Shown here: piece after piece, positions 684-42,888 of the stretch | Numbering within the stretch: position 1 is the stretch's first letter | Layout: each line of letters begins with the position of its first letter | Assembly (NCBI GenBank): GCA_009760855.2 | Contig: WPIO01000090.1 | Coordinates: 186,001 to 250,000, forward strand | Origin: Cristatella mucedo | Taxonomy: Eukaryota; Bryozoa; Phylactolaemata; Cristatellidae | Direction: 5' to 3' | DNA length: 64,000 nucleotides | Position numbers and translations under genes: made by a program | The notes under the pieces: model-generated | Seen by the model: the letters and a program-made list of their open reading frames with translations, nothing else | Database searches by the model: none | Told to the model about the DNA's origin: nothing

Positions 684-942
684 GCACTGAGAGTCTCACC
701 GAGTTTGTGGAACTCATCGCCAATGTCACTACAAACACCTCTCTGGATAATTACTACGTTGCCTTTTACCAAGGCATCACACTCACCGCCTTCCATGTCA
801 CTCCACTTGCTGGAATTTTTGCTGCTACCCCTGCTAAGCAGTTCATCGTGATAGGCACAGTAGATGTCTGTAAGCCATGTGATGCCACCATGCTGGGAAA
901 CAGGATCCACAATGGCATGGGTGCAATTGCCATCCATTACAG
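684..942 (+). CDS. Exon 1 in window: first half of LTD repeat 1
   Basis: The acceptor follows a T-rich tract ending TATTGTAG and the donor is CAG/GTAAGT. The exon enters in phase 1 and leaves in phase 2. It encodes TESLTEFVEL, then LDNYYVAFYQG, FIVIG and NGMGAIAIHY, which is the order of the first LTD strands. The preceding INEV-type strand should be on an exon left of the window, since no candidate is seen in 1-683. Confidence 0.8.
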
Positions 943-3900
943 GTAAGTTTATGGTGCTCCCATGCTACTGCTTGAGTTTTTCCAACCTCGGTATCGAATC
1001 TTTGAACAAAAACATTAATTAATAGTGATAATCCATTGCTATTTTGCTCCTGAGTCTTGAACCAGGAGGTAAGGTGCTTGCTCTGCACCACTCAGGTCGT
1101 GTATTCGAGTCCTGCTGTGGGCGTTCCTGTATTGCCCACTGCAAGCAGTGGTGATATTAGTTAAGGTTCTTCTGTCGCTATACAAATGGGGCTGTTGAAT
1201 CAGCTAATGTTTTTTATGATTCAATAGCACCCTCTGAGAATCTTGAATTATTCTAGGAACTTAACATAAGCTATAAAAAATCCTAGCTGATTAAGCAGCC
1301 TCTTTTTGTATAGCGACAGAAGAGCCTTTACGGCTATCACCCCGCTTGCAGTGGGCAATACAGGAATGCCCACAGCAGGACTCGAACCCACGACCTCGGG
1401 ACCGAGGTCGTGAAAGCAACCCCCTTACCTAGTGTGCCATCACAGCTCACCAAAAAATAACCGACACCATAAGGTTAGTGGTAGCGTGACCAGCCGTGCT
1501 GGCTTGGCTCAGTGGTAAAGATGCTCGCCGGGGGATCGAGGTCTGGCCGAGATCGTGGGCTCGAGCCCTGCGGCATACGTGAAGTGCCTAAATAGGGATT
1601 AAGTTCTCTTAAGGTGCAATTCATATGAACTATAGTTGTATACTACAGTGTCAGCACCTATAAGTGTGCTAAGGGCATATCATTAGGAGCCAGCAAATGC
1701 GGTGGGAAACCGGTGCATTGTAGCTTCTATTGAAATGTCAAGTCGGTTGGGGGGTGTCGTGACGTTAGTCAGAAGCAAGCTCGAGGCTTTGGCGCATGCA
1801 AGCTAGCGGCACGGTCTCCAAAGGATTTGAGGTTAGTGCGAGGCACAGCTAAACGATTTTAGTCTGTAGAGCCGATGGTACGATGTCATCCCTAGCATGA
1901 TTGGGGGGGGGAATATTGTCATTAATAGTCTAGAGCCAGAGGCTGAAGGGATCTAAAAGTTTGTGACAAAACCTAAAATTCTATACACTGCTTGATAGTT
2001 AGCCTCTGCATGTCGGTGAGAAGTGGTATGATGTGGCAACTACGCACCTCACGCCGGACAAGCCTAGCTGTCGAGTTTTGCATCAACTGTAAGCGCAGAC
2101 CAGCAAGCAATGAATTACAGAAGTCAAGACTGGATGTCACAAATACATTTGATACAACTGTGTGCCATATTTGGACATTCGCACACAGACTAACCTTGTG
2201 CCTGGTCGTTTAAAGGTCGATTTCTTCGAAGCCTTTTTTGCGTTAAAGGGTAGTTAAATGTTTAAAACGATTGCACGGCCATTGTTTTGTTGGTTGTCGT
2301 TTTATGACGGTTACTAAATGAGGGATCAGGATTTGGTGGCATAACTTCTCAAGCCTTCCCTTTTCTCATTATGTTCTCCGCTCAGGGTAAATGCAATTGA
2401 TAGTGCCAAATTGTCTGTGGCTACTAAGCTTCCCAAGTAATGTTTTTTACACAAGCAACCCACATTCAACCCAAGTGCTAAGGCAGCCGCCGTCGATCTC
2501 TTCAGCATGGGCCAAGTAGAGACCGTGTTGTCCAAGTGCTGCTTGATCGCCCGACCTAGTTCACACTTCCTACTGCTCTCCTGCTATTGTGACGTGTGAC
2601 GGCTCGGTGACGAGCTCATTGATTCCATCCGTTTGCAGAGAAGAGGGCCCAATTCTCAGTGGCTGGCCGGCCTCGCGCGACGGCCTCGTCGATGCCTACG
2701 TATACGTGGCCGAAAGCAGCCCGGAGCACCCGAGGCTCATCGATCTGCTCGGCCTGCACAGATCGCACATCGTCTACGAGGATGACAGCGCCTTTGCTCT
2801 CGGCGACGAGTCGGTCGGCCTTTGCGGCGACAACGTCATGTCGCTGATGCTGCTCACACCGGGCCGCCCAAACAACTGCTTGGACAATCCGTCGGCGCTG
2901 AAGCCGCGCAGCAGCAGCAGTGACCTGGCGGTCGCATACATCAACGAATGGCAGCCCTTGGCCAATGGCAGTAGCTCGTACGTGGAGCTGGTCGGCCCGC
3001 CCGACGTCTCGCTGTATGGGCTTGCCCTGAAGGTGGCACTACTGAACCTGACGAGCGGCGCTGTGTTGCGCGAGAGCAGCTTGCTGAAGCTGGATTGGGA
3101 GGCACGACTGTCGCCGACCGGACTCTACGCTCTCTCGAGCAGTGCCTTGAATGCCCTCGCGGTCGACGCGCTTGCAGCAGCAGCTTTGGGCGGGGGCAGC
3201 GTCACCTTCCGGCTGATGCTTGCGACCGTGCTGAACAAGACCGTCTGGACCCACGCCGAGCCGCTGGTTCCACTCGACTCGGTCGACGTGCTGCCGTCGA
3301 GCGGAGCCGCCACGGCCGCTGGATCCCAATCGGGCGCACGCTTCGTGCAGCTGAACCTGACCGGCGGTATGCTGTCGGCATCCAGGTGCCGGCTGAACGC
3401 CAGCTCACCGGCCTCGGCTGCAGCCAACAGTCCGGCATTCGATCCGAGGCCCGTCACGCCTAACGCAGCCAATAACTGCCCTCTGCCATTCGGCGTGCTG
3501 ATCAACGAGGTGATGCCGCCTAGCTCCTCGGACCCGTCGTCGTTCGTCGAGCTGCTGGTTCAAGGTGAGTGAGATGATGATGGCTTACTCGCCATGACAA
3601 TCGCTTGCTCGCTGCCTGGTCCGCCTGAGCCGGCAAATCAGCCCCTCGCCTTAGGGACCCCGGTCGGGTAGGATCTTAATGGGTGAGCTGTTTATGGCTC
3701 GGTTTCGCGAGTCTTTGGTTCAGCTTGCGTCAAGAATGGTGCGACCCATTTTTTCTTTTCTTTTGCCACAGTGTCCATTTAGTGTGTCAAATGCTTTTTT
3801 TGTAGTCTTTGTCTAGTAGTTCACCCCCCCCCCCCCCGACAGCTCTGACTGTTAGTCCTGGTGCACCCGGTAAGGTCATTGACCAGCCAACGTCGGGTTA

Positions 3901-6900
3901 GTGCTTCGTGTCGTGGAGAGCCAGCTGCTCTCACCTACTGGCAGTCTTTGTTGAAAATGTTAATGTGCCTAAACTGTCAGGATTTTCGTGGCAATTGCCA
4001 CTGCATCCTGTGGAACGGCTCGCTCTCTCTTTTTCACTCTTTTTTTTCTGTCTTTCTCTCTTTCTCACTAGTGAGAAAGATGCTCGTGTCTCGTCATTGG
4101 ATTTCGAATCCACCACTCTAAAACCGGAAGTTTATGTCTCATCCTACTAATTATTGATAGGCGGCTACCGGTAGTAGCACTTTGCAGTAATGGGAGGTTC
4201 TGATGGCACGTGACTTGGTTAGTCTGCAAAGTAACTTCGAAAAAGACCAGTCCCCACGGTGCCCAGACGACGGTATAATACTTGGCCTCTAGGCAGCTTC
4301 ATTCTGTACTCCACGTGAATAGAAAAAAAGTTGTTTTTAACATGGCCCATCAAGACCGCGGTCAGTAAATGTACTCTAGGGTTTAGGAATATACTTTAGG
4401 GTTGCAGTCACGACGAGAGTTGTATGTTGTAAGCTACTTGAAGTTACCGGTAAAGGACAAAGCAAGGGTTGCAGTTCACCTTTCCTTGACTGCCATACAT
4501 AGCCCTGCATTTGACCATGTTTGGAGGCATCTTTGCATTCCTACCTTTGCATTGTCACATTTTTTTGTAAGAAACTGTTGGATTTATCGTCTAAAAAAGA
4601 GACGGCAGGTCAATGTGGATGTCGTGAGGTATCCCACCCCTACTGAAGGTGCTCAATGCAGCCGGTAGGTTGGTCTTTAGATCAAAAAAGCAGTGGGGAG
4701 TCGCCTTAGCTAAAGGAGCTGCTCTGGTTACTGGTTGGTCAGCTATTGCAAAGCACATTCTTGCTCTCACCCTTGTGCTGCCATGGTTTAGCTGCTGCAC
4801 ACCTGGTGAACTGCTCAAGCAGTTTCAGCCACCTCGTCTCTTGCACTCATCTTCTCACCTGAACTGTGGAGCTCACTTCGACAATTATTGCACCAAAACC
4901 ATGTCTGATGACCTGCTTCTTACTCAGAACTTGCTTTTTAGCCATCGTACTTGGCCACTTCCGTGCTGGTTGCTTGCTTGACCGCTATCCTGATTCTGCT
5001 ATGCTTCTGGCGTGTCTCTGTGTCCCACCCGGTTTGGCCCTGTGGTTAAGGCCCCTTAACGACCGAGGTCAAGGTGAATGTATTTGATGACCGAGGTTAT
5101 GGGCCAGAGCCTGTGGCATATGTGAAGCATCTGAATAGAGATTTGGTCCTGATAGGATGGTATATAAATGGATTATATTTTTATTAATTTTTTCCTTATA
5201 GAATTCGTTGGCTCCCAGGTGCACTCAGAAAGCCGCTTAGATTGTTGATCCATTGTAGACCAGGCCTTCAGAGCCTCTAAAATGTCTCATGTGGGTTTGC
5301 TAGCAAAGACCACGTGCACACTGTCACGACATCACAAATGAAGACCACGTGCACATGAACACTGCTTTTCTAACAGCTGAAGGAGCTGCTTTGTATCTAT
5401 CGATGCGGAATTCGTGTTTATTGGAAGGTTCCACGTTTGTTGCTACTGTTTGCTCTATTTAACTTCAGCTTACCAAGGGTGTGTTAGTGCGCGTGCTTAC
5501 GTGTGTGCTAATGTTTGCCTGTGCACACGCTTCAGTACCCCATCTTGGCTAATGTGTGCATTCCAGGCAGGCATTTGGACTCGTGAGTGCACACAGCTTA
5601 CAGCTGTTGCTTTTCTCCTTATTTTACAGTACCTTTGACTGCTAGTGTAACACTGGACGGCTTTGTGCTAGTTTACTGGAGTGGCGATACTGGTGCAGCT
5701 GTCAAAAGTTTGAGCCTATCCAAGTCATCGGCCAAGCTATCATCAACATCGGAATGGCTAGTCGTCCTGGAAGGTAATTGCCACCTCCGACATGCCATTC
5801 CTGCTGACAGTTTGCTGCCACTGTCGAGTCAGTGTGGCCTCCGGGTTGCAGCTGCCTTTGAGCTAGTAATGGCAGTGACATGTTTCCCGTTAAGATTACC
5901 TATAATAGTAATAATAATAATACATTTGTATGGTGCTTTCAGAGAACTTAGTCTCTTTCTGGGCACTATACATATGCTGTAAAGGAAGCACAATCGAATG
6001 GTTAGTGGTAGCATGCTCAATATCAACAAGCATCACATGGTTTGAGATGGCATGCACAAGACCAGCATGCAAATATGGTTTGTCGCCACATGCACAGTGT
6101 CTGCACGAATAAGCGCAAAGGACGAAGTACATTGACACATTGAATGCTGTGATAAATAGACCTATGTTAGCTTCTTTGTATATGTAGTTATGTCAGGGGA
6201 CGTTGTGACGTATGTCGATAGTGAGTTCCATGTTTTAAGAGCATACGGAACTAAAGGAACAGCCTCCAACGGTTTTCAGGTTCGTACGAGATATTGCTAA
6301 ACGATTCCAGTCAGAACAGTGGGTTGTATGATTTTTGGCCTAGTGGGGGAGTAGATCTGATAGGTAGGCTAGAGCCAAAGAATGAAGGAACGTAAAATTA
6401 AGTTACAAGAGCCATATAGTAAGTTGAAAATCTGAGCATACGTTAGTAGTATGAGAGACTGGTGCCGGCAAGTGCATTAGCCGATGCTCGAAGCTCGATC
6501 TTTGTGTGCCTCTTGCCCTTCATGCTACGCATCTGTGGTGCTGCATTAGTAGCAGTATCAAGTTCGACCGTTGATGGAAATTCATCAGCCCGGAGCTAAT
6601 TAATTGTATGCTTTGCTAGTTTACAAAGACATTGCGATCTGAACCAGGGGTTTTTACCATTTTTCCTAATCCACTAACCAAAATGTGGTACTTAAAAGCC
6701 CACGAAAACGATGGCTGGTTCAGCGGGTGCTCACTACCGAAGAGAACAGCATCACACACGACTTTATTTTTTTATTTTACAGTCTACCACTAATGCCACA
6801 TTGCTCTTTTCCTACCCCTTCCCGCCCTCAATTTGCCTACCTTGCTTCCCATATCTTCTCATGTGATTATGTAGGATGTCCCAATTTCCTGCTTTCAGTG

Positions 6901-9900: not shown

Positions 9901-12900
9901 ATCATGCCTTGGCATCGAATTTGCTGTTCGGTTTGGTGCCCTAATCGGCAAATGGCAAGGGCAGTCGCTGGTGCCTGTAATGGGCTGTTGCTTTCGGCTG
10001 GACTATGGTGGGACCAGAAGAGACATTGACTGAAATCTAGAAAAATCGACATGTGACTCATTCTTGATCTAGTCGTAATTAGCAGATCGGGTCAGGATGC
10101 TCCTGGCTATAGTTGTTGAATTTGAGGCTTTGTGAGCATTAATTCATTTGTGAGCATTAATTCATTTGTGTATCGCCCTAAGAGAACATAATCAATGCAG
10201 GCGCTTTACATATGCCACAGGGCTCGAGCACCTTAACCACTGGGCCAAACCAGTGAGGCATGTATGAAGGTAGCAAGTGGATTGGTTGACTATTATTTAA
10301 CTGTGTTGCAATAATGATTCATTGCACATGGCCTCTTGGCAGTGTGGTTGGGTACCTGTCATAGTGTGCTTTCAGTTATGGTATGCCACTAGCATCCGAA
10401 ACTCTACGCTAGTAGTTCTAGGTCCAGAATTCATTGCTGTGTGCCTACGGGTTTCTAATGCTTGTTGAGTCAGTTTACAGAGTTCTGTTTATTTATATTC
10501 CCTAGGCAAGAGGCTTATCATCGGTGAATGGGCTTGGGTGTGAGTGGCCGGCCTCAAAGATCTCTCGTGCTAGTTCCCACAGCCATTGTGCTAACCGAAC
10601 GTTACCGGTGTCGGCTGTTTTCAGAGGATGTTCAGTGACAGGTTTTCTAAAGGTTTTGCCACTATATTCCTTCTGTAACTCTCTGGAGGCTGTGCTGGCC
10701 TGCCGGGCCACACTCGTACCTGGTTGGGTGGTGCAGCCAAGCTAGCAGTCGCCACCAAAGAATTGCCTTGTTCAAGATGCCTGACTTGCTGGTCAGGCTG
10801 CATCTGCAGATGGACATGCCGGCATCCTGCTACCCAAAACCCTGCAATCCTGTGCACCCCCTCTATCTCTGTACTTGACTTTACAGGAAACTGCCTAGGG
10901 GGCTGGTGTGTGCCCAGTCGGTGGGAGTGAGACAAGCCGTGATATTGACATCCCGACCCTTATCACAGCTGCCTAGTGCCGAGACTGATTTGGTTTGTAT
11001 TCTTATCAGCCCACTGCCACACGTGCAGGAACCGAATTTCTTGGGCTTGCTTCATTCTGAACTTAATTCCATCTTAGTTCTTTGATGATTAAATAGGCAT
11101 CATTATTCGATTTGTCTTAGAAGTGTGCTTTGAGCTGGAATGTATGATAATGACAGGTTACCTGGAATCTTTACCAGTGTCGGTGGCTAACTAGTTTGAA
11201 GGGAAGTGGGGGGGACTGCAACTAGAACATAATCTCAGCCCTGGTTTACCTCACTTGATTTCAGTCGTGCTGACTGCCAGTTGGTTGAGCAATCTCTCTC
11301 AAGACCCCGATCTTGCTGCTAGCTGCAATTGTGCAGGGGGCTCATTGGCTAGGCATTGATTGGGGCTCATCAACTGCTTCCTATTGCCAGCCATGACCTG
11401 GTTCTGCCCCTCCCCCATTGGAGAAAGCTATCGATTGGCTATAGTTCTTGGCTGCACACAGCCCAGCATGATTATAATGCAAGCAACGAAGTCGGAAGTG
11501 TATGGCTGCTCCTGCTTTGTTTTTAGTGCAAATGCTTCAGGTAACTTCGAGTTCATGCCTCCCTCATGCCAATTGCTCGGCACAAATTACGGCTTGGGTG
11601 CTTGGACTAGATGTGGCTGACGTGGTGCAAGCAATAAGTTGGAAAATGTTTGGGCTCTAGACAAGACCATATAATTGCCATCGTTGGAGTAGCAAGAAGG
11701 CATCCAGTCAAGCTGATGGCAGGCGGATTAGAGAATCACTTCTTAAGCTGGCTGGCCAATGGCTACGATCCATCCTAATTGAGTTGGATTGTAGTGCTCT
11801 GGCTTTCTCCAGGGCACCGAAAGGTCAGCTTCTGTCATGCCATGCATCTTAACATCACTGCTGGATTTCTCTCTTCCTTCGCTATAGATGGGCAAGGTGT
11901 TGTGACTGTCGTGGATACCAACAAGCAGCTGTCGCTGAGCCGCTGTCCTGGCAGCACTAGCTCCACAGTCGACGCTTTTGAGCCGATGCCGCCGACGAGG
12001 CAGTTACCGAACGTCGCGTGCAGGGCACAGCCGAGAGGAACCGAGGCCATCACGGTGCAGCAGGGCCTGCAGCTACGAGTTCGAATCAACGAGCTCTCCG
12101 CTAGTGCTGGCGCTGGCAGCTTTGTCGAGCTGCTGAGCGCCGAGCCGGGCCTGCCACTGACCGGCCTCTCGCTCGGCCTCATGTGGTCGGATGGCAGCAG
12201 CAACTGGTCGAGTGCCAACTACTCGCGGACCTCAGTGCAGCCGACGAACGGCAGCATCGTGTCGGCCAGTGGCTACTACAAGGCAGAGCTGGCAGCCAGC
12301 GACATCCATCCGCCTCCCGGCGCCTCGGTGTTGTGCGTGGTGCTAGTGTCCGGCCGAGGCGCCGGCTCGCTGGCAACGATGCCAGAGCAGCTGAGCTTCG
12401 ATGCCAAAGACACAGGTCTAGTTGATCAGATCGTGGACGCGCTGGCCGTCTTCGTCGGCAATGGCTCGGCGGCGCCCACCGTGGCTAGCGGCAGCGAGTG
12501 GCCGCTCACGCCACCCTATGCTCCATTGAGCAGCACTGGCGGCCTGCTGGGCACCGCCTCGTTTTCGCGCTGCTATGTGGGCACCGCTGCAGCCAAGGTT
12601 AACGTTGCGTTCGCAGCAGCAGCTAGTGCCACGCCAGGCGCAGCAAACCACTGCCCGCTGCCGCCGGTGCTCGTGCAGCATGTTTGCACCGCTGGCGGCC
12701 TGGCTACCGGAGAGGGCCGCAACCTGTCGCTGAAGCTTGAAGCGTCAGCAGCGCCAATGCTGCCGCTAGAGCGGCTGCGTGTTGTCACTTACGGAGGCGA
12801 GCAGTCTTTGCTGAAGTTCACACCTTTAGACGTGCCGCTGAGTGTCAGCGCAATCGGCAACGATGGCACGCTGGCTGTCAGCACGCCGTATCGGACAAAG

Positions 12901-13626: not shown

Positions 13627-13718
<92 letters not shown>

Positions 13719-19700: not shown

Positions 19701-20066
19701 ACAAGCTAAACTTGTATATCATATCTTCAAGCCTGACAAGGAAGTTGTAGTCATGGTTTAGAGGGATACAATCCAAGCAGTCTGCACTCATGCCAGTGTA
19801 TAAAGACCTTCTCGGGAATGCAGATTTTGATAAAGCCCGCTTTTTTTCTGGTTCTTTCTGGAGCTTTTGACACTATTGAGCACCAGCTCCTACTAGTGTG
19901 CCTCCCGTCTCGCTTGGACGTAATGGGCATGGCACTCCAATGGTTTAGATCTTATCTCAGTGGAAGACTCGATAGCATCGCTGGCAATGGACAACATTCA
20001 TCCGAAGAGCCCCTTAAGTATATGGTGCCCTAGGCTTCTGTGCTTGGTATAGTCCTTATGACAATT

Positions 20067-23100: not shown

Positions 23101-23605
23101 TGACTTCAAGGTTTTGTCGCTCACTTTTAGGTCCCTTCATTCTATGGCTCCAGCCTATCTCTCCGACATACTCCCCCATCAGGCCAAGCATCGTACCACC
23201 CGCTTTTCGGAATCCAACAGTCTAGAAATACCTCATACAAACCTTGAATCCTTTGGAGACCGTGCATTTAGTTCATATGCTCCCAAAGCTTGGAACTCCC
23301 TCTGACCTGCGTCAGAACATCCCCTGACCTGACCACATTTAAAGGGAACTTAAAAACACCTATTTAGGACAGCATTTAGTGGGTCCCTGTGATTCGTCCT
23401 TGATGCGCTTCTGCGTGCTGACACTGTGCATGCTGCCACTAACCACATTTGCATGGTGACCCTGTGCATGTCACCCCTAACCATGCTATTCATTTTGTTT
23501 GTTTATCAAGCATGATTTTACTCACCATTCAATTGCATTTCCCTTTGCAGCAAATGTAAAGCGCCTAGCAAGAGATTAAGTTCTCTGAGGGCGCTTTATC
23601 AAGTA

Positions 23606-32600: not shown

Positions 32601-33924
32601 GTTCCTAAAGTCTGTAAATCACTCCTCTCCCCCCTCGATGGACGTCACGACATGCTTTAACTTGACAACGTTTAGAAAGATGGTAAATCCCCTCCTGCTC
32701 CTCAAATCATTCTCATTTTGCTCATATCTAGCCATAGGCCACATATCTTTCCCGACGATGATTGAACTCAATTAAGTTATATAAAAAGGGTACATGTTGG
32801 CTGATCACCACGGTTTTGACATCTTTTATGTTGGCCCAAGGTTTCTGTAACTGTTTTCTGCGGTCCTGCAGCTCTTTTCCATCAGCAAATGTACTTGGAA
32901 TGGTTCTTGCCACAACCGTATTTTTGGCGTTTTGTATACTCACTGTGTACTGCCTGAACCTTCTTGAAAAATTGCTACTTTCGAGAGGGGTGACACTTGA
33001 CGAACCTTATGCATCTCATTTGCAGTGTTCGATCAAAAAATTTCTTTAAAAAATCACAATTTTTCCAAACTCGCTTGAAATACCAAATGTCATTTCCCAT
33101 AATTTGCTACAACCATCGCTTCTTTATTTCAGCCATACTATATTCTGGTATTGTTTGATGGTCGGCTGCTTCAGCCGTGTAATTTATATGTAGTTGCTGC
33201 TAAAGAGCCTTGACCCAGGTTTATACGATATCTGTTGTTGGTTCTTAGTGGATTCTAATTTGTATGCTCTGTTTACTCCATCAGTTTGCCTTATGTTATG
33301 TTTCTACCTAGTTTTCTGCGACGTCCACTCACAAGAGGGGCAAAAAAAAGTTGATTTTGTGCTACCTTTACAAGCGCATGTACTCCGGCAAGCACTGAGA
33401 GTTGTGCATTGCCCTGCGGTCAAGCTTTGTGTACAATTTCACTTTCTTGGCGAATGCCGTCTCATTATCTTATTTCTATCGCTAGTGTTTGTAGTGACCT
33501 ATAAACAATTACTCCTGTGGAATTCATCGATTATTTTGCTACTCTCATGGTAGCCATTTCTTTAAAGCAAGGATGAATGGGTATGCACCTGGCGGCAGCT
33601 ACGGTTTGGTCGTCTGTTCGTGGCTTTCCTTCAGTCTTCTATCGGACTGACGTAAAAGTAGAACCCTGCTTCACTTCGTCGGTCGGTGTGCACTTTCCAT
33701 CATTGTTTGTACTGCCTCCATCATTGGCTATGCATTTAGCTAAGAGGAAGGCAAAACCTAAGCAATACCTGCAATAATCCGACCGTGTAAATGCACCTTT
33801 ATTAGTGCTGTCACTCTGCTTGCAGTTGGTAATAAAGAAAGGGCCGTGAAGCATAAGCACCTTGCCCCGGGGCTAAAACCTTGTGTAAATGTGTTTATTT
33901 ATTTATATTTATATTATTCTTATG

Positions 33925-33965
<41 letters not shown>

Positions 33966-35754
33966 ATGATATATAAAATCACTGAGAAGTCAATGTGGTT
34001 TGTATGTGTTGAATATGCTTAAACCTTAGGCTTGCAAGTATGCCGTGCTTAGGCATAGGGAAGAGCATGCATGGGCTGCTAAGTGTATGCCCCTGGGTCT
34101 TAGCTCTGTGGTAATGTTCTCTCTCTTTACGATCCAGGTCTAGAGTTCGAGTCCTACAGAGGGCGGTCCATTACTGCTCGGTGTAAGCAGTGGTGATACC
34201 CTTCGAGACTCGTCAGCCGCTATATAGATGAGGCTGTTAAATCAGCTAATCATTGTTTTTTGTTGGCTGGATCCTGTCGTGAGGTAGCTTTCCCTAATAA
34301 GATTTTTGCTTTGGCTGGCGATGGCGCCGATGATTTCTGCCATGTGTGTGTGCTGAAGCAGAGGGATATACTCGAATGCCTGCTTGGTTCATTCGTAAAT
34401 GTGCCCTTACAGATGTCGAATCCTTTGGAGATGTTGCGATAAGTCTTGCAATCTGTCCCACGCTCTGTCCTGAACACATACATGCATATTTGCATTCTAG
34501 GCATTCTCGGTGAGCCGCGATGGCACGCTAGGTAAGGCGGTTGCTTTTCACGACCTCGGGACCGAGGTCGTGTGTTCGATTCCTGCGGTGGGTGATCCTT
34601 TATTGCCTCTGCATGCAGTGGTGATAGCCGTATAGGCTCTTCTGTCGCTATACATGAGGCTTTTAAATCAGCTGGTATTTTTTTAAGCCATGGTTGTTTG
34701 CTGCCATCAGCACATTAGCAAAATTGTATGTGCATCCTTTAGTGCACTTGGCTTCAGCAGACACGTACAGCCGTGTACTACTTGAGCCAATGGCAGACTC
34801 GGTGCAGAGACTGCTGTGCCGCAGTGTGCCAAGGTTCAGAATACGTTTTTACTTAGTCGAGGCTTGTTGTGGTCGACCATGTTATTGGTATTGATCTAAC
34901 GAAAATCTGTAAGGTGCAATCTCCCGGCAGGGTACGTGAGTGTCGTCTGCTGCGTTGTGCAGATTTGTTAGCAAACGTCATCGAAGATTTGTGGTTCAGA
35001 CCCTGAGACACGACACCATGAGCTCCAATGATTTTGCCGAGGACAGTGCTCAGTGTTGGTGAAGATGTCACTTGCAGCTGTCACTTGTTGATGTGTATTG
35101 ATGTGTTGCACTATGTGCTCCCAGTGTATATTGTGGGCTACATGCGAGCGGTGGTTTTTGGTACACCCTGGAGAAAGTGCTTGATTTTCTCTATTAATCT
35201 GGACAAATAAATGAGAAGCCCTACCCAAGGCTGGAGCATGACACGGGTACTGTGTAGAGAGGCATTCAGCCGAGTTCCTTAGCTTACAATCAGTTTGCTT
35301 TCACCAGAGGTGCTATTGTGGAGAAAGAGAGTGAGTGAGGGGAGAGCAACGTGACTGTAAAAAAAAAAAAAAAGTGCCGCTTCCTCTCGTGCCGGCTGTC
35401 AATCTATAGTTGAGTCGATTAATTGTCATTGAAACCTTTACTTCAGACATGAAAACCTGTGGTGCAGGAGTGCAGTTCGATGCCTACGGGACATCACCAG
35501 AGCACTTGACTGCAATTGGTCGCAGCTTCGCAAATGTGCTCAGCCGTGGCATCCTATCCGATAAAGAGAAAGGTCTCATCCGGGCCATCAGCAGCAACTG
35601 CTCGCTCGACTGTGCCACCACCGTTGTATCAATAGGTAAGAACTACCTACTGGTCGGCCTAGTGTATGCATGCCTGTGTGCAGTTTCCTCTTTTTTCTCC
35701 TCACTTTCTCTCTTTATCGACATGTGGAGAGATACACGTTCTCTTCTCTCTCTC

Positions 35755-35846
<92 letters not shown>

Positions 35847-38800: not shown

Positions 38801-41800
38801 GATTCTGTCGATGAATTAGCTCTAAAACTAGACTGGAACTTGCTTGGTTTGAAGTTTCAATATAAGAGTTCGGCCGGTCTGCCACAACTTGTTCTAGTGT
38901 CTTTGATGGGAACTGCAGTAGGAATACTGGCCGGTATATAAGCTCTCTTGCTCTTGTATTGTTTTCTTAATTAGTGGCATAACAACAGCCTTTTTGAAAG
39001 GTGAAGGGGAAAGTCCCAAGGCTAAGGATATTTGTTATGTTCGTTATTCATAGCAGTAGCAGATCTAGGCATCAAGAGTAGGTCATTGGGAATCGATTCT
39101 AGAAAACTAATCATCGTAGTCGACTGGGAGATTAATTTCAGATGTCACCCGTGGCAGGCTTGAATGTAGATATTGAGGTGATGCAAGGAATTGAGGGAGA
39201 GTAGTCATGTGGGGGTGGTTTGAATGTAGAGAAGTACAGTGAGGACGCGGTTACATTAGGGATGGATTCTCTGATCTTGTCTATTTCTTGCTGACAAAGA
39301 TGCTATACAAGCAATCTGCTTGATCTCCACAAGGATCACTGGGTAAGGAACCAACTAGGGTGTGATCAAGGAGATGGTTGATTCTAGACGTTAGCGTTTT
39401 TGGATTGTGCATTTTATGGTTCGACTATGTCAATACAATAGCTAGACTTGGCCATTGCTAGTGAACATTGGTGTCATCTAAAGTAGCCCCTGTATGCCAG
39501 TTGACAGACAGTCTGACCCGATCTTTTCTAGCTTTCTCATGCAGGCCCTAAGTAGACCTAGCTAGTTTAATGTCTTCGGTAAACTATAGGCCATCTGGGT
39601 GGGCATACAATTTTCTTAGAGGTGCAAACTCGTCAGGAACATCGGCTCAATCGTGATGTAGCATTCTACCTGTGAGAACAGGTCAGAAGGAGTATTGAGC
39701 AACGGAATCAAGGGAGATATTTTGTGTGCCGACAGCATCAGTGTCAGAGTGATTCACATATGATTCTTGGTGCAGATGGGGGGCACAAACTGCAGGGTGA
39801 AAAGGTCAGGCTGTGTTCGGCTGCACAGAATTCAAGATAACAGGAAACAGCACCTACAATCGTTAGGGAATATTTGTTCACGTGTTACCTTTGCTGTAAG
39901 TGGGGTCATGCACATGAGCCACTAGATAAAGTTAGTCAGTGCACGAAATTCGGCACAATGCATCGGTTGACTCGTCAAAATGAATGTTGAAAATCAGCCA
40001 CAGCTATGAAGGGACGATTTCTTGCACACAGAATCATCTCTGAGATACGCTCAGAAAAATCTGAAATAAGGACTTGGTACCTTTGGGGCGATAGATTACT
40101 GCCACCATATTAATTTGCTTTCTGGTGGACTCGGAGCAAGAGATTTAAATACTGTTTTGAGGGGACTGCAGGCACTTTGTAATTAGGGATGGCATGCGAC
40201 ATTGAAGACTCCTTTACAGTTTTGATTGATCCAAATGTATGAAAGAAAAATAAGCCTGAGGGCATAGGTTATGGTTGAGCAGTTAGTCGATTTCAGCGAG
40301 GTCTCGGTCAAGCAAGCTGGTCGAGGGCAATACCCTCAGCCTTTGTTAGATAGATTAAGCTAGCGGATCTCACAAACTGCCCGGTGGTGGATGGGGAGGT
40401 GAGGCACAGGGAAAGATTCCATCGTTTTTATACTAGAGATAAATAAACTGGATAAACTCTTGGGGTTAAGTACACTGCTATAGTACCGAGACAGAATCAA
40501 TCTATCGAGATAGTGCTTTGATCTCTCCCCTCAGTCATCTGCTATGGATAAATAGTGGGTGGAGAGCATTGGGGGAGGGGTGCCGAGACCCCTTTATTTT
40601 GGCTAAGAATAGCTATCTTAGAGCTTCTTCATGCTAAGGCAGCAGCTGAGTTTGAGTCCTGTTTTAGATGGAGCTGCCTGGGGAAGTAGGTTGGTACAGT
40701 TTTGTGGAATAATGTTCTTCGAGCGCAAGTTCAGCCGGTTTGATCGACTGTTCGAATATAGCAGGAGTGGTACTTGAGAGTTCTGGCGATGCAAGGCTCG
40801 ATGTATAGAAGCTGACAGCAGCGCCACTGTGTATTTATGATGTGTGGTCCTTTTGTGCCTGTGCGTGCATGTGTGGGTTGGTGTTCACTGTCTTCCTTCC
40901 TCCCAGCTGTTTCGCACTCTCTCCTTCTCCCTCTATCTGCTAGTTAGTTTTAGTATAGCATTCACCATTGCTTGCTGCCTAATGCATGACCCCTCCTTCC
41001 TTGCATAGCAACGCTTGTGGCACCCTTTAGGCCCCTTCCTCTAGATGCGAGCACGGTGTGGTAGTGCGACCTACCACATCTAGCGAGCAGAGCAGCTAGG
41101 GCAAAGGCATCAGGACCACTGTTCCAGCTGGAGAATGCAAAGTGGTCGGCTGGCATCTTGTCACGTGACATGTGCGAGCACTTCCTGCATTGCCGACAGC
41201 CTCCTGAGCTTGCGCCATGTACGAGTTGCAGCACAAGGGGGCAGCAACAGCGGCGTTGTTGCCGGCATTGTGGTGACCGTCGGGGTGCTGATCGCTGCCG
41301 GCATCGTGACGGTGTACTGCATACGCAAGAGACAGGCCGACAGAGGGTGAGCAGAAGCAGCATCGGTCGCTGATGCAAGCACTCGGCAGCAGCTGCTGCC
41401 GCTGGCTGCACTTTACCTGCAGTCCGTAGCCACCATGCTTACACTCACTGCTCGTTTGACAGCTGCCTGAGCCTACTGGCCACAATGGCACCGCCAGGCT
41501 GGCATCAGTGGCACTGCATCACCCCTAGGTCACAGGCCGGGATAAGATGCTCTGCGCTTCTCGACCCAAGTTGTGGTTTCAAGTCCTGCAGTTGGCATTT
41601 CTTGTTTACTCACTGAAGTATTCATAGGGTGAATAATGGCCGTTCATGCTTTTTTGCCTCTATACAAATGAAGCTGTCCAATCAGCAATCGTTTTTTTTT
41701 TTTTTACTTTATTGCACACCCAGCCGATAGTTAGTACCAACCAAGATTCCGGCACTGGTTTTTTATGTGCAGTGTGTCAATCTCTTGTGCTGTATCGTTA

Positions 41801-42888
41801 TTTTTCTTTCACTTGCAGTAATAAGTCATTTGTCATTTGAGCCTTCCTCGTGAGTCATCTATCTGTATCTATCATTTGCCTTGATTTTTCGATGTTATGA
41901 CCATGCTGTGCTTTCACCTTAAATGATAGCCTGCTGAGTGCCGATACCACTATCATCTGATGTAAAAGCACAGCATCGTTTCAACATCGAAAAATGAGCT
42001 TGAGTCCCTAAGGCACAGTTGCCTGATTAACTAAGAAGACCTAAAGTCTGGGTGTCACGCTGGGTGGTTGGATGTTGGGCTGTGGGCTATGACTTCCACG
42101 CCTAATACATCCGTTATCTGAATTGAGTAAGGTGCTCGTCTGGAAACTCGAAAAAACTGATTGGTTAGGTCTGTTACTGTTCTTAAGAAAAAACGTGTAG
42201 AGAAAAAGCTATAACTGTGATGTGCTCCCTCATTTTAGGATTAGTAGGGCACTATAAGCAAAATGCTATAGCATTATTTTCGTTGTTAATCCCCCTCCTG
42301 ACATCATCGAAAGACCGATTTGTATGGCCACTAGGCTTTAACGCCCTGCCAATAAGGGTTCATAATAATGATAATAATACACTTTATAAAGCACCCCCAA
42401 AAAACTCAATCTCTTTCTAGGCACTTCACATTTGCTGCAAATAAAACGCGATCGAATGGTGGATGGTATCATGCGGGATAAACAGCATGAATAACATGGT
42501 TAAGGGTGACATGCACAGGGTCAGCGTGCAAGTGTGGTTAGTGGTAGCATGCAGTGTCAGCATGCATAAGCACATAATGGACGAATCACGGGGACTGTTT
42601 TATAGCCAGTTTTACTAGTATTAGTATTTTTATAGTTTCCATTTGCATGCAGAAACCTCTGCAACATTAATAACGTGAGCAGTTGTCAACGTTTGAACTG
42701 GGATAACGAAAAGTTCCCTAAACAACGTTTTGTTCACCTTCCTCAATTGCAGATTCCAAATGGCTCGCTTTGATGGTACATTCGACGACGACGATACGTT
42801 TGCCGGCGACAATGCGTCTGGGCGAGTAACGTTCAGCAACCCATTCCGTCCCCCGGCTTCAGAAAGAAGGCAATATGCCAAGCTCTGA
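684..42888 (+). CDS. Large multi-exon gene for a single-pass membrane protein with at least six tandem lamin-tail-like (LTD) domains; 5' end outside the window
   Basis: Fourteen exons join in one open frame of about 1,321 codons plus stop. Every junction uses GT-AG, and the intron phases (1 into exon 1, then 2,1,1,1,0,0,2,1,0,2,1,1,2) match on both sides, so the chain is unlikely to be chance. The protein has repeated LTD signatures: INE[VLW] followed by a [FY][VI]EL strand, a hydrophobic strand near L-x-G-[FY], a [FIV]VIG-type strand, an NG-x-x-A-[VI]-A-[LIV]-[YH] strand, and an LSRC/TPGxxNxC end. A membrane-proximal cysteine region, one transmembrane helix (41252-41323) and a 52-residue tail follow. 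Many N-x-S/T sites fit an extracellular ectodomain. The N-terminus is not in the window. LTDs are known from nuclear lamins and from secreted bacterial proteins; a membrane receptor with six of them is not a family I recognise. Function is unknown; adhesion or ligand capture is inference. Confidence 0.82.
1050..1215 (+). mobile_element. SINE family B (tRNA-derived)
   Basis: It has a B-box-like TATTCGAGTCC, a CACTGCAAGC hairpin segment, TTCTGTCGCTATAC and an AATCAGCTAAT tail followed by T-rich sequence. It pairs with the inverted copy that follows. Confidence 0.75.
1278..1449 (-). mobile_element. SINE family B, inverted relative to the preceding copy
   Basis: On the - strand this copy starts GGTGAGCTGTGATGGC and carries the inverted repeat CACGACCTCG/CGAGGTCGTG, the B box GGGTTCGAGTCC and the GTCGCTATAC tail. 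It shares the less common word CCTGCTGTGGGC with the + copy, suggesting recent local duplication. Confidence 0.8.
1493..1635 (+). mobile_element. SINE family A (tRNA-derived, LINE-like tail), diverged
   Basis: The A-box region is TGGCTCAGTGGTAAAG and the B-box region is GGGCTCGAGCCC. The tail GTGAAGTGCC...TTAAGTTCTCTT matches the LINE 3' end. Confidence 0.7.
1745..2170 (-). mobile_element. CR1/L2-like LINE fragment, 3' coding end
   Basis: The - strand matches the C-terminal part of the reverse-transcriptase ORF seen intact at 55-57 kb, including the VTSxLDFCN and GDR regions. It is degraded by frameshifts. Confidence 0.65.
2639..3564 (+). CDS. Exon 2: end of LTD repeat 1, all of repeat 2, start of repeat 3
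   Basis: The acceptor is GTTTGCAG and the donor is CAAG/GTGAGT (phase 2 in, phase 1 out). Its 926 bp are strongly CpG-rich compared with the introns. The end of repeat 1 has GLVDAYVY and LLTPGRPNNC. Repeat 2 opens with YINEWQPLANGSSSYVELV and closes with LSASRC and TPNAANNC. Repeat 3 opens with VLINEVMPPSSSDPSSFVEL just before the donor. Repeat 2 has no intron. The frame is open throughout. Confidence 0.85.
3565..5026 (+). other. Intron 2, unique-looking sequence
   Basis: No repeat family or coding exon recognised. A C14 run lies at 3824-3837. Confidence 0.5.
5027..5195 (+). mobile_element. SINE family A, diverged
   Basis: It contains CGGTTTGGCCCTGTGGTTAA, a B-box remnant and GCATATGTGAAGCATCTGAA, then ATATAAATGGATTAT. 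It has an internal duplication of the ACCGAGGT segment. Confidence 0.6.
5630..5773 (+). CDS. Exon 3: central strands of LTD repeat 3
   Basis: The acceptor is CTCCTTATTTTACAG and the donor is GAAG/GTAATT, phase 1 on both sides, 144 bp. It encodes VTLDGFVLVYWSG and SEWLVVLE, the strands that follow FVELLV in an LTD. The frame continues directly from exon 2. Confidence 0.75.
5905..6440 (-). mobile_element. CR1/L2-like LINE, 3' end fragment
   Basis: The (ATT)n tail, the TCTCTTTCTGGGC stem-loop region and the 3' UTR words GTTAGTGGTAGCATGC match other copies. Degraded coding sequence follows. Confidence 0.7.
6441..8780 (+). other. Intron 3, right part
   Basis: I see no conserved coding sequence and no SINE or LINE. 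Several open frames at 6.7-7.3 and 7.6-8.2 kb have no recognisable protein and no splice context. Confidence 0.5.
8781..8978 (+). CDS. Exon 4: later strands of LTD repeat 3
   Basis: The acceptor is GTGCTTATAG and the donor is TTCT/GTGAGT, phase 1 on both sides, 198 bp. It encodes ARHIVALYYNYDF and ERLLASAAYSIDF, corresponding to the VALY and DAxVY strands of other repeats. It lies in a long intron-like stretch with no other coding signal. Confidence 0.75.
8979..11887 (+). other. Intron 4
   Basis: Apart from the SINE A fragment at 10.14-10.26 kb I recognise nothing. TGGGTTCGAGGCC at about 9,116 resembles a B box, but no A box is convincing. Confidence 0.5.
10144..10262 (-). mobile_element. 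SINE family A, partial
   Basis: The - strand has TGGTTTGGCCCAGTGGTTAA, then GCTCGAGCCC, GGCATATGTAAAGCGCC and a tail. An 18-bp tandem duplication of the tail region lies at 10134-10169. The middle of the element is deleted. Confidence 0.65.
11888..12900 (+). CDS. Exon 5: end of LTD repeat 3, all of repeat 4, start of repeat 5
   Basis: The acceptor is CTTCGCTATAG and the donor is AAAG/GTAGGC (phase 1 in, phase 0 out), 1,013 bp and CpG-rich. Repeat 3 ends with LSLSRC. Repeat 4 runs from VRINELSASAGAGSFVELLS to TPGAANHCPLP, without introns. Repeat 5 opens with VLVQHVCTAGG, where the usual INEV is degenerate, and continues to LERLRVVTYGGEQS and TLAVSTPY. The layout mirrors exon 2. Confidence 0.85.
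13631..13717. repeat. (TG)n microsatellite
   Basis: Uninterrupted TG/GT run of about 87 bp, about 130 bp upstream of exon 6. Confidence 0.97.
13845..14042 (+). CDS. Exon 6: later strands of LTD repeat 5
   Basis: The acceptor is CTCTCTTGTCGTAG and the donor is CCTCTT/GTGAGT, phase 0 on both sides, 198 bp. It encodes NDTLLAVAVYFY and LLVHALMLHYRP, equivalent to the VALY and DAxVY strands. It begins about 130 bp after a long (TG)n tract. Confidence 0.75.
14043..15179 (+). other. Intron 6, left part
   Basis: No coding or repeat signal that I can support. Confidence 0.5.
15180..15720 (-). mobile_element. CR1/L2-like LINE, degraded coding fragment
   Basis: The - strand carries remnants of the RT C-terminal half, for example STVKSVYLQLSN near 15,660. 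Several frameshifts and a deletion are present. Confidence 0.6.
15755..16420 (-). mobile_element. CR1/L2-like LINE with internal deletion
   Basis: The 3' tail (ATT)n and stem-loop at 15,755-15,860 are joined directly to RT N-terminal sequence (FRVNHSRKSALLQVYNDFL), so most of the RT core is missing. Confidence 0.7.
16911..17026 (+). CDS. Exon 7: C-terminal part of LTD repeat 5
   Basis: The acceptor is GGCGTCCTTTTGCAG and the donor is AGTGG/GTGAGT (phase 0 in, phase 2 out), 116 bp. It encodes PICIARCQMAADWKIRL and ends with SCPVQSG, the counterpart of LSRC...NxC at the end of other repeats. The exon is short, so support rests on splice sites, phase and position. Confidence 0.65.
17335..18510 (+). 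mobile_element. CR1/L2-like LINE, 5' truncated
   Basis: It begins inside RT motif GVPQGSVLGP (degraded by frameshift), then shows the VTSSLDFCN and LVQDSAARLVCRERR regions and ends with the stem-loop and a short tail. Frameshifts and stops make it non-functional. Confidence 0.8.
18735..19010 (-). mobile_element. LINE fragment, strongly degraded
   Basis: The - strand resembles the C-terminal coding and 3' region of the same LINE family. Similarity is patchy. Confidence 0.45.
19240..21055 (+). mobile_element. CR1/L2-like LINE, long but old copy
   Basis: It starts in the linker before RT (LADHFSSFF), includes NPIPTALILRSLDQLLP and SGAFDTIEHQLL, and reaches the 3' stem-loop near 21,020. A (CT)n tract splits it at 20,072-20,112. 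Many stops show it has decayed. Confidence 0.72.
20072..20112. repeat. (CT)n microsatellite inside a LINE
   Basis: About 40 bp of CT at the place where other copies read ACTCTCCCTCTTGC in the RT ORF, so it probably expanded from that pyrimidine-rich stretch. Confidence 0.9.
21056..21440 (+). other. Intron 7, gap between repeats
   Basis: Nothing recognised beyond a weak LINE-tail-like ATATCACCCCAAGAGAGCTAA at its right side. Confidence 0.35.
21441..21638 (+). mobile_element. SINE family B
   Basis: It has GTGAGCCGTAATGGCTCACT, the CACGACCTC/GAGGTCGTG pair, the B box GGGCTCGAATCC, CCACTGCAAGCGGTGG and an AATCAGCTAGC tail with (TTTA)n. It lies about 350 bp upstream of exon 8. Confidence 0.82.
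21992..22065 (+). CDS. Exon 8: opening strand of LTD repeat 6
   Basis: The acceptor is TTTATTTACATAG and the donor is TAAAG/GTGAGC (phase 2 in, phase 1 out), only 74 bp. It encodes ESVLINEVDIKQPGLDLYEF followed by IELK, a textbook LTD start. The donor position and phase match the exon 2/exon 3 boundary of repeat 3. Confidence 0.78.
22160..22345 (+). mobile_element. SINE family B, diverged
   Basis: GACGATGGCCCACTAGGGAC opens it, ACTCGAATCCTGCGGTTGGC marks the B box, and CCACTGCAAGTGGTGG and AACAGCTTATAT follow. It lies about 95 bp downstream of the exon 8 donor. Confidence 0.75.
22765..23640 (+). mobile_element. CR1/L2-like LINE, 5' truncated, well preserved
   Basis: An open reading frame covers the RT C-terminal half (SDLSLDDHISSTVKSAYFQL, LVQNSAARLVCREHR, LPVKQRIDFKVLSLTFRSLH, FGDRAFSSYAPKAWNSL). 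The 3' UTR, stem-loop and (ATT)n tail are present. Confidence 0.88.
23640..23735 (+). mobile_element. Second LINE 3' tail in tandem
   Basis: A further copy of the terminal 90 bp (TTTGCAACAAATGTGAAGTG, stem-loop, (ATT)n) follows directly on the previous tail, with its own substitutions. It is a minimal insertion or a tail duplication. Confidence 0.8.
23736..24899 (+). other. Intron 8, right part
   Basis: No supported gene or known repeat. A short degenerate repeat with the unit CTTCCTGGGCC occurs three times at 24,180-24,240. Confidence 0.45.
24900..25069 (+). CDS. Exon 9: central strands of LTD repeat 6
   Basis: The acceptor is GTGGTGCTGCAG and the donor is GTGCAG/GTGGGT (phase 1 in, phase 0 out), 170 bp. 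It encodes LDASDYMIVVYIVT, GRFSPTGFFVIGSSNVG and PFPDNVQ. The FFVIGSSNVG strand is the clearest LTD core in the gene. Confidence 0.8.
25070..25865 (+). other. Intron 9, left part
   Basis: Nothing recognised up to the LTR border at 25866. Confidence 0.45.
25866..26330 (+). mobile_element. Ty3/Gypsy-like LTR, split by a SINE
   Basis: It starts TGTTGATATCGTG and ends CTCACAACA, with the TG...CA termini of an LTR. It is about 310 bp once the SINE at 25926-26078 is removed. A diverged inverted copy lies at about 26690-27007. A primer-binding site follows at once. Confidence 0.78.
25926..26078 (+). mobile_element. SINE family A, near-consensus, inserted in an LTR
   Basis: It has GAGCTGGTTTGGTCTAGCGG, GGGCTCGAGCCC and GCATATGTGAAGCGCCTGAA, then ATATAAATGAATTAT and poly-T. 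The inverted LTR copy lacks this segment, so the SINE inserted after the LTR. Confidence 0.9.
26333..26350 (+). other. Primer-binding site for initiator-Met tRNA
   Basis: TGGTAGCAGAGAATGGTT begins 3 bp after the LTR. It is complementary to the conserved 3' end of metazoan initiator-Met tRNA with one mismatch, as in many LTR retrotransposons. Confidence 0.75.
26440..26685 (+). pseudogene. Gypsy gag capsid remnant
   Basis: A short open stretch encodes AIDDYELFCRKLVWLCTLL followed by TEEEEARCFRLEQ, the pattern of the Retrotrans_gag capsid region. It ends abruptly where the inverted LTR begins. No protease, RT or integrase core is present. Confidence 0.6.
26690..27007 (-). mobile_element. Ty3/Gypsy-like LTR, inverted copy
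   Basis: On the - strand it starts TGTTGAGATCGTGG and follows the + copy for about 310 bp, sharing GTCTGGCAG, TTGACTAGCCAATCGGA and GAGTTTGGTTGTGTTCC. Its right border at 27007 is sharp and the left border is approximate. A polypurine run (AAGGAAGGAGGAA) lies just before its 5' end. Confidence 0.75.
27008..27550 (-). pseudogene. Possible 3' end of a Gypsy polyprotein with polypurine tract
   Basis: The - strand reads into the inverted LTR through a polypurine tract at about 27010-27022. Upstream, an open stretch at 27107-27379 encodes a Pro/Ala/Arg-rich segment (TTRRPLEDRQRNRVYLQT), plausible as the variable tail after integrase. No catalytic motif is visible, so the assignment rests on position. 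Confidence 0.4.
27720..28700 (-). mobile_element. Second CR1/L2-like LINE family, fragment
   Basis: The - strand encodes PLGVPPGSVLGPLLFSIYTE and LVLSRLDYCNSF with frameshifts between. These RT motifs differ from the main family. A related fragment lies at 30,290-30,710. Confidence 0.65.
28835..28982 (+). mobile_element. SINE family A, diverged
   Basis: CCCCTGGTCTGAGC and GGTGGGCTCGTGCTCTG mark degraded A and B boxes. The tail CATATGTAAAGCGACTGAA to TTCTCTGAGGGTGC resembles the LINE tail. Confidence 0.5.
28985..29160 (+). mobile_element. CR1/L2-like LINE, 3' UTR and tail only
   Basis: ACCTTGTGCATGTCACCCCT, TTTGCAGCAGATATAAAATG and the stem-loop are followed by (ATT)n. Confidence 0.75.
29635..29728 (+). 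mobile_element. CR1/L2-like LINE, tail only
   Basis: It contains TTTGCAGCAGATGTAAAGTA, the stem-loop and (ATT)n; only about 90 bp were retained. Confidence 0.75.
30010..30120 (+). repeat. Possible tRNA-like repeat
   Basis: ATAGCTCAATCGCTAGAGCA resembles a tRNA D-arm/A box, followed by an anticodon-arm-like AATCCCTGGATT. No convincing B box is found at the expected distance, so this is not called a tRNA gene. Confidence 0.25.
30290..30710 (-). mobile_element. Second LINE family, fragment
   Basis: It resembles 27,790-28,110 (GAGTTCCACGTTCTAGGGTC and the CTCCTTCAGCAAAG region) and has no long frame. It lies about 150 bp upstream of exon 10. Confidence 0.5.
30864..31045 (+). CDS. Exon 10: later strands of LTD repeat 6
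   Basis: The acceptor is CTTTCACTCTTCAG and the donor is ACGAA/GTGAGT (phase 0 in, phase 2 out), 182 bp. It encodes LSNNGGAVALYKRSG and GTGLIDVVLYATS, then SEVLVEDT, a typical second half of an LTD. Confidence 0.8.
31303..31550 (+). CDS. Exon 11: end of LTD repeat 6 and first part of the membrane-proximal region
   Basis: The donor is GAGCG/GTATGT (phase 1). Two acceptors keep the same phase, before 31303 and near 31257; I chose the later because it gives the shorter LTD loop (LYGGNGTLSRC). TPGGDNFC closes the last repeat. The rest is cysteine-containing: LSLKFCLNRT and LATAIGSNCSCVFGSYHLS. That module is repeated in part in exon 12. Confidence 0.7.
31988..32140 (-). mobile_element. SINE family A with a poly-G expansion
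   Basis: The - strand has GCCGAGCTGGTTTGGTCCAG, GGGCTCGAGCCC and the LINE-like tail. A 13-bp homopolymer (32055-32067) replaces the usual CCCGAGGCA segment. Confidence 0.8.
32430..32720 (+). mobile_element. LINE fragment, old
   Basis: It contains TATAGATTTCAAGGTTCGGT and TCGTATCGTACCACCCG, which match the IDFKVLSLTFRSLH to TTR region of the RT C-terminus, with many indels. Confidence 0.5.
32721..34089 (+). other. Intron 11, central part
   Basis: AT-rich sequence with hydrophobic chance frames, but without splice sites in the phase the gene requires. It contains the (TA)n tract. Confidence 0.45.
33919..33961. repeat. (TA)n microsatellite
   Basis: TATGTATG followed by an uninterrupted TA run to 33961. 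Confidence 0.95.
34090..34255 (+). mobile_element. SINE family B, diverged
   Basis: GAGTTCGAGTCCTACAGAG is the B box; GTGTAAGCAGTGGTGATAC and AGGCTGTTAAATCAGCTAAT are the tail. Another copy follows about 250 bp later. Confidence 0.7.
34509..34685 (+). mobile_element. SINE family B, near-consensus
   Basis: It has GGTGAGCCGCGATGGCACGC, the hairpin CACGACCTCG/CGAGGTCGTG, the B box GTGTTCGATTCC, GCAGTGGTGATAGCCG and a T-rich end. Confidence 0.85.
35447..35635 (+). CDS. Exon 12: second cysteine module of the membrane-proximal region
   Basis: The acceptor is CCTTTACTTCAG and the donor is CAATAG/GTAAGA, phase 1 on both sides, 189 bp. It encodes KTCGAGVQFDAYGTSPEHL, then EKGLIRAISSNCSLDCATTV. The GLxxAIxSNCS pattern repeats the one in exon 11. 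I do not recognise the fold. A long (CT)n tract starts about 110 bp past the donor. Confidence 0.72.
35741..35843. repeat. (CT)n microsatellite in the intron after exon 12
   Basis: About 100 bp of CT with two TG interruptions, starting about 105 bp downstream of the exon 12 donor. Confidence 0.95.
36335..36505 (+). mobile_element. SINE family B, diverged
   Basis: CACGACCCAGATCGTGGG retains the inverted repeat; GGTCCTGCAGTAGGCAATGC and TTTAATCAGCTGAACTTTTT match the family. Confidence 0.6.
37370..40400 (-). mobile_element. CR1/L2-like LINE, longest copy, including endonuclease remnant, with nested SINE
   Basis: Reading on the - strand, 3' UTR words lie at 37,370-37,560 and the RT C-terminal half at 37,560-38,230. 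After a SINE at 38,231-38,396, RT N-terminal sequence runs to about 39,100. Further - strand sequence to about 40,400 corresponds to the pre-RT linker and apurinic-like endonuclease region, matching 57.0-57.7 kb where they overlap. Stops occur throughout, so it is inactive. Confidence 0.7.
38231..38396 (-). mobile_element. SINE family A nested in a LINE
   Basis: The - strand reads GCCGAGCTAGTTTGGTCCAG, GGGCTCGAGCCC and CATATGTGAAGCACCTGAAT, with a tail ATTATTATCATT. The LINE continues on both sides. Confidence 0.88.
40440..40860 (-). mobile_element. Possible LINE-derived sequence
   Basis: The - strand at 40,618-40,827 encodes NRLNLRSKNIIPQNCTNLLP, resembling the LRS-containing C-terminal stretch of some LINE RT proteins. 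The match is weak and no tail is visible. Confidence 0.3.
41232..41346 (+). CDS. Exon 13: transmembrane helix and stop-transfer sequence
   Basis: The acceptor GAGTTGCAG has a weak pyrimidine tract. The donor is AGAGG/GTGAGC (phase 1 in, phase 2 out). After a glycine- and serine-rich linker (QGGSNSG), 41252-41323 encode 24 mostly V, I, A and G residues, followed at once by RKRQADR. A hydrophobic helix followed by a basic cluster fits a type I single-pass membrane protein. Confidence 0.82.
41528..41705 (+). mobile_element. SINE family B, diverged
   Basis: It contains TTTCAAGTCCTGCAGTTGGC, GCCTCTATACAAATGAAGC and AATCAGCAATCG followed by poly-T. The A-box part is degraded. Confidence 0.65.
41881..41998. 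other. Imperfect hairpin, 49-bp arms, precursor-miRNA-like
   Basis: The arms 41881-41929 and 41950-41998 pair without gaps at 39 of 49 positions, separated by a 20-nt loop. The best block is ATGCTGTGCTTT against AAAAGCACAGCAT. It lies in the last intron of the LTD-receptor gene and matches none of the LINE or SINE families here. It could also be a small inverted-repeat transposon. Confidence 0.6.
42364..42600 (-). mobile_element. CR1/L2-like LINE, 3' end only
   Basis: The tail, the stem-loop and the 3' UTR words GGTTAGTGGTAGCATGC and GGACGAATCAC are present. It ends about 150 bp upstream of exon 14. Confidence 0.8.
42753..42888 (+). CDS. Exon 14: cytoplasmic tail and stop codon
   Basis: The acceptor is CCTTCCTCAATTGCAG, entered in phase 2, and the TGA stop is at 42886-42888. 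With exon 13 it makes a tail of about 52 residues. The tail carries DDDD (42784-42795), SNPF with NPF at 42838-42846, and a C-terminal YAKL at 42874-42885. NPF is the core ligand of EH-domain endocytic adaptors and YxxPhi is bound by AP-complex mu subunits. No kinase or other enzymatic domain is present. Confidence 0.8.

Follow-up and report, generated by a model that had tools for sequence, protein, structure and literature searches.

A 64,000-nucleotide stretch of the genome of the bryozoan Cristatella mucedo (contig WPIO01000090.1, positions 186,001 to 250,000, hereafter the window) carries on its forward strand a gene whose product is predicted to be a type I single-pass membrane protein with an ectodomain of tandem lamin tail domain (LTD)-like domains. 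From the sequence, we place the probability of this architecture and topology at roughly 0.7. Frame scans and splice-site reading located the first exon within the window at 684-942 and the stop codon at 42886-42888. The ectodomain, which has abundant N-glycosylation sites, would form a rod in which at least six LTD-like (Ig-like) domains of the type seen in secreted bacterial proteins follow one another, two cysteines lying toward the end of each (SRC or similar ... TPGxxNxC). Next would come a short Cys-containing juxtamembrane segment, a single transmembrane (TM) helix, and a tail of 52 residues that includes an NPF tripeptide. The domains, their order, the TM helix, and the length of the tail can be read directly from the sequence.

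The window encodes five LTD-like domains in tandem (A, B, C, D, and F). The cleanest, domain F, is joined from four exons and reads INEVD...EFIEL...TGFFVIG...NNGGAVALY...GLIDVVLY...LSRC...PTPGGDNFC. The motifs INE..F[VI]EL, FVIG, NGGAVALY, and SRC..TPGxxNxC, on which a preliminary description of this DNA had relied, are present in the frames. The PF00932 profile search proposed in that description returned this family, and no other Pfam family at E <= 10, for the joined domain F (E 0.0047, 17.7 bits, profile positions 7-105 of 109), for the full domain A (E 0.15), and for domain Z (E 0.23), an LTD located just upstream of the window. All three matches are below cut-off, the gathering threshold of PF00932 being 34.3 bits, and single exon frames gave no LTD match in the Pfam scan.

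A profile built exclusively from ten bacterial LTD domains scored F at 52.8 bits, A at 29.7, the joined start of C at 26.3, D at 13.8, and B at 5.6, and did not list a further candidate, domain E. With this profile, B is not above chance, since the best of 6000 shuffles reached 6.9 bits, and F is favored because it was in the query that fetched the bacterial loci, whereas A, C, and D were not. Applied to all six frames of the window, the same profile listed eight frames at E <= 100, the best seven of which are forward-strand exons of this gene. Only the first two of these are strong on their own, at 26.0 and 23.2 bits; scores of the remaining five run from 11.8 down to 5.0 bits. The frame holding the end of F was not listed at this threshold. 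For the leave-one-out tests, each profile combined four of the ten bacterial domains with whichever of A, B, D, and F were not being scored; these profiles gave 36.9 bits for A, 20.1 for B, 23.8 for the start of C, 7.0 for the end of C, 29.5 for D, and 61.9 for F. None of the 5000 composition-matched shuffles per domain scored as high in any of these cases, with the end of C passing narrowly (best shuffle, 6.4 bits).

The alignment of A, B, D, and F was compared by HHalign with 12 bacterial LTDs from nine of the ten loci, which gave a probability of 97.8 and an E value of 1e-12 over almost the entire length (columns 4-191 versus 3-167). The bacterial set includes domains of loci L008 and L010, whose proteins pass PF00932, and 8 of the 12 members of a combined alignment (four window and eight bacterial domains) match PF00932 at E <= 1. 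Two alignment columns have Cys in all of A, B, D, and F, with matching cysteines in C and Z. At the level of sequence, the domains are thus homologous to bacterial LTDs, and the LTD identity first proposed is upheld by the HHalign comparison, the leave-one-out scores, and the Pfam listing. Tandem LTDs with TPGxxNxC-like ends, as found here, are the mark of tandem-LTD extracellular proteins. PDB sequence searches matched 1, 3, 0, and 0 chains, with no LTD or lamin among them.

Domain E is not supported as an LTD, its leave-one-out score of -1.8 bits being reached by 1280 of 5000 shuffles; with an out-of-frame tail included, the score was 1.1 bits (247/5000). In this region (13845-14200, forward strand), the frame 13845-14042 is followed by an SRC...STPAASAG stretch that resembles an LTD end and lies in another frame. 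An indel, a missed intron, and decay are candidate causes of the frame change. At least six LTDs had been claimed within 684 to 42888, of which five stand, whereas the sixth, E, fails the profile test. Domain Z scored above 5000/5000 shuffles with two profiles and above 4999/5000 with the bacterial-only profile, and because it joins the five in the window, a count of at least six LTD-like domains is supported for the gene.

The gene starts outside the window, with at least three further exons upstream. The intron that separates exon 684-942 from the INEF exon of domain A likely has a GC-AG donor (CAG|GCAAGA), near -2600 in window coordinates. No signal-peptide exon was recognized in crude scans of approximately 30 kb upstream, where the 5' end is incomplete; these gave 0 and 2 candidates, and both candidates fall within a reverse-transcriptase-like stretch.

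Within the window, 12 exons are supported, 13845-14042 among them being tentative (Table 1). AG is found at all 12 acceptors and GT at all 11 donors, and the stop closes the last exon. Phases are compatible at 10 of the 11 junctions (2/2, 1/1, 1/1, and 0/0 from A to E; 1/1, 0/0, 2/2, 1/1, 1/1, and 2/2 from F to the tail), the exception being junction 14042/21992 (0 versus 2). The preliminary description had reported fourteen phase-compatible exons; the general structure holds, with a lower count and one clash. Because of this clash, an exon must be absent or wrongly placed between 14042 and 21992. Another is probably missing between 5773 and 11888, because domain C lacks its GGAVALY-to-DAVVY part. 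A third domain C exon at about 6965-7160 looked motif-like by eye and was not retained, as the profile did not list it and no consistent phase was found for it. The joined exons, two of which are approximately 0.9 and 1.0 kb long, contain no internal stop, and we infer that they are spliced into one transcript.

Hydropathy analysis of the joined protein gave a single peak (best 19-residue value, 2.62 versus 1.76 for the next), which marks one TM helix. It is followed by RKRQ and a tail of 52 residues, RKRQ included, that contains FDDDDTF and one NPF and ends in ...RRQYAKL. The 24-residue hydrophobic helix, RKRQ, and stop 52 residues later that had been described at the outset were recovered. 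Basic residues after a single TM helix are the pattern of a type I single-pass protein. The two halves of the juxtamembrane segment share GL..AI.SNCS (local score of 43, reached by 11 of 5000 shuffles). No Pfam family was above cut-off in the juxtamembrane-to-tail part, with three weak listings over the TM region.

The joined ectodomain of 1140 residues, counted with Z left out and the tentative part of E included, contains 18 N-x-S/T sequons, compared with a shuffled mean of 8.1 (standard deviation, 2.6); 2 of 2000 shuffles reached 18. This enrichment argues for passage of the ectodomain through the secretory pathway. Together with the invariant Cys columns and the TM helix with its following basic residues, it lends statistical support to the predicted secretory location, in agreement with the initial proposal of a cell-surface or secretory-pathway protein.

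Lamin tail domains are most familiar as parts of nuclear proteins. The likeness of this gene to nuclear lamins and invertebrate intermediate filaments is a distant LTD homology (PF00932). In those proteins the LTD comes after a coiled-coil rod, whereas no rod match was found on the contig of this gene among the best candidates scored, and lamins have a CaaX end, whereas this protein ends in YAKL. On these two grounds, identity as a lamin or intermediate-filament gene was rejected. The genome assembly searched (572 Mb in 688 contigs) gave three PF00932 matches, none of them in this gene, that lie 2.3-3.0 kb from intermediate-filament rod exons. Fifteen PF00038 rod matches were obtained, none on this gene's contig (only the best candidates were scored). 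Rod matches above cut-off were observed on four contigs (C518, C77, C550, and C111), the two places on C77 being about 130 kb apart. A lamin-like LTD piece of 63 residues from the same genome scored 1.0 bit with the bacterial profile versus 38.2 bits for the start of F, a far poorer fit than that of F, A, or C. The LTDs of this gene thus appear closer to secreted bacterial LTDs than to the lamin-like tail of the same genome. No close paralogue was seen for the part from F to the tail, all seven of its matches in the 572 Mb being its own exons.

Direct searches of GTDB genomes and viral contigs with domain F found nothing. Against plasmids, tblastn of F gave a single weak match (E 0.7); it lies in a Terrarubrum protein that has a weak PF00932 match of its own at its start (18.2 bits). 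The Terrarubrum LTD in turn retrieved four other plasmid records, three of them annotated as ExeM/NucH extracellular endonucleases, and a GTDB scan with domain F plus the Terrarubrum LTD led to the ten bacterial loci. Among these, L008, from a Deltaproteobacteria metagenome-assembled genome, has five successive LTD-like repeats (PF00932, E 8.6e-47 over three stretches). It resembles the window gene in having tandem LTDs of approximately 165-185 residues, several with TPGxxN ends, and SRC and NDC cysteines in one repeat that are like those of the window domains; a signal-peptide-like start was seen by eye. Unlike the window gene, it has no introns, no TM helix plus tail in the part examined, and another segment after the LTDs. 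Sequence identity between window domain D and the remaining rows of its alignment (A3) is only 14-26%.

According to the available part of PMC6085458, bacterial LTDs also occur as multiple tandem repeats, the role of which is not yet elucidated. Given this report and L008, tandem LTDs are already known. ExeM/NucH endonucleases share with the window gene an LTD of the INE...EF[IV]E...QNG...[AV]L type, N-terminal in these enzymes. There it is fused to nuclease domains (PMC6085458, available part), whereas the window protein has no nuclease family in the parts scanned: none was listed by Pfam at E <= 10 in the 370-residue part from F to the tail or in the A-B-C start, other parts being scanned as pieces and the 5' end being incomplete. 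Secreted CotH proteins of the ichthyosporean Creolimax are a case of an N-terminal LTD in a secreted holozoan protein; there the LTD sits on a CotH protein and was gained by domain shuffling, in a protein family whose past includes lateral transfer (PMC4739763, in the portion available). Non-lamin eukaryotic proteins with LTD-like domains that have no coiled coil or other lamin features are described in the accessible text of PMC5630835, and one of those listed in its supplement could be of the same architecture. No multi-LTD animal membrane protein was recognized in the open-access literature as judged by titles and the starts of abstracts, a scope that leaves out most subscription journals and supplements. 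Invertebrate sequence databases may contain similar, uncharacterized LTD proteins. What is new here would be the TM-anchored animal form of tandem extracellular LTDs, tandem LTDs themselves being known.

The joining of the rod to the membrane anchor invites another reading. The second juxtamembrane, TM, and tail exons are linked only by compatible phases over introns of 3.9, 5.6, and 1.4 kb, no homology spans their junctions, and the second juxtamembrane exon rests on phase and a weak repeat. Two genes could therefore have been wrongly joined, a secreted multi-LTD protein ending after F and a small TM protein at 35-43 kb. However, a single exon continues from the end of F into the juxtamembrane segment, its GL..AI.SNCS recurs in the next exon (11/5000 shuffles), and the phases agree at all three junctions (f4-j2, j2-tm, and tm-cy), which makes a misjoining distinctly unlikely. 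Decay of the gene into a pseudogene would account for the degenerate domain E, which fails the profile test and has its SRC-like continuation after 14042 in another frame, and for the out-of-phase junction 14042/21992. It is highly improbable in view of the stop-free joined exons, including the two long ones, of the motifs and cysteines conserved in the other domains, and of the enriched sequons.

By analogy with a proposal for the LTDs of bacterial nucleases, the product might also be a secreted or surface protein whose LTDs hold extracellular DNA. The ExeM/NucH annotation of three of the four plasmid records points in this direction, as does the discussion of the LTDs of secreted DNases as DNA binding (PMC4486849, available part). 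Still, we consider this unlikely: among the last 370 residues, Pfam lists no nuclease family, and ExeM in cells did not need its LTD to degrade extracellular DNA, although the enzyme was slower in vitro once the LTD was lost (PMC6085458, same part).

For the type I membrane protein favored here, the LTD rod would bind an extracellular ligand (matrix, polysaccharide, or extracellular DNA). NPF is a motif of EH-domain ligands, and the tail may couple the protein to the endocytic or cortical machinery via an EH-domain protein; 343 of 20000 shuffled tails also contain NPF. A role in surface adhesion or capture with endocytic coupling is the favored, though tentative, suggestion, in which disulfides, ligand, and endocytosis are all presumed. 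It is conceivable, though doubtful, that this animal genome holds two LTD lineages, one of lamins and intermediate filaments and the other a bacterial-secreted-type array recruited, through lateral transfer or out of an old prokaryote-like stock, for a membrane adhesion or capture ectodomain. If so, the array would represent a class of surface modules parallel to Ig, FN3, and cadherin repeats. A surface protein built of bacterial-type LTDs would mean that the LTD also serves animals as an extracellular building block. Such an array would allow a search for what LTDs bind, and it would bear on a possible prokaryotic origin of the lamin LTD, a question raised in the accessible text of PMC5630835.

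Table 1. Exons of the LTD gene within the window
Exon	Coordinates	Strand	Phase in	Phase out	Content
e1	684..942	+	1	2	Most of LTD domain A, FVEL to GAIAIHY; 26.0 bits, top six-frame match of the bacterial LTD profile
e2	2639..3564	+	2	1	End of domain A, whole domain B (2925-3479), start of domain C
c2	5630..5773	+	1	1	Middle of domain C (VTLDGFVLVY...)
e4	11888..12900	+	1	0	End of domain C (SRC...NVAC), whole domain D (12076-12654), start of candidate domain E
e5 (tentative)	13845..14042	+	0	0	Middle of candidate domain E
f1	21992..22065	+	2	1	Start of domain F (INEVD...EFIELK); 23.2 bits with the bacterial LTD profile
f2	24900..25069	+	1	0	Domain F, ...TGFFVIGSS...
f3	30864..31045	+	0	2	Domain F, NNGGAVALY...GLIDVVLY
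f4	31303..31550	+	2	1	End of domain F (LSRC...PTPGGDNFC) and first juxtamembrane segment
j2	35447..35635	+	1	1	Second juxtamembrane segment, weak repeat of the first (GL..AI.SNCS)
tm	41232..41346	+	1	2	TM helix GVVAGIVVTVGVLIAAGIVTVYCI (41252-41323) and RKRQ
cy (last exon)	42753..42888	+	2		Cytoplasmic tail with FDDDDTF and NPF; TGA stop 42886-42888

In the 64-kb window, no tRNA and no Rfam match were found. Its introns and LINE-like reverse transcriptase, together with intermediate-filament genes elsewhere in the assembly, give the DNA an animal character. A reverse-strand frame at 50906-51493 that neighbors the LTD gene contains an A20-type zinc finger (PF01754, E 1.3e-10) and is probably a ZFAND5/6-like gene. 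Reverse-transcriptase fragments (PF00078) lie at 45085-45573 (+), 53139-54182 (+, below cut-off), and 55338-56582 (-), and similar fragments, seen by eye only, occur in introns of the LTD gene at 17653-18256 and 22733-23305.
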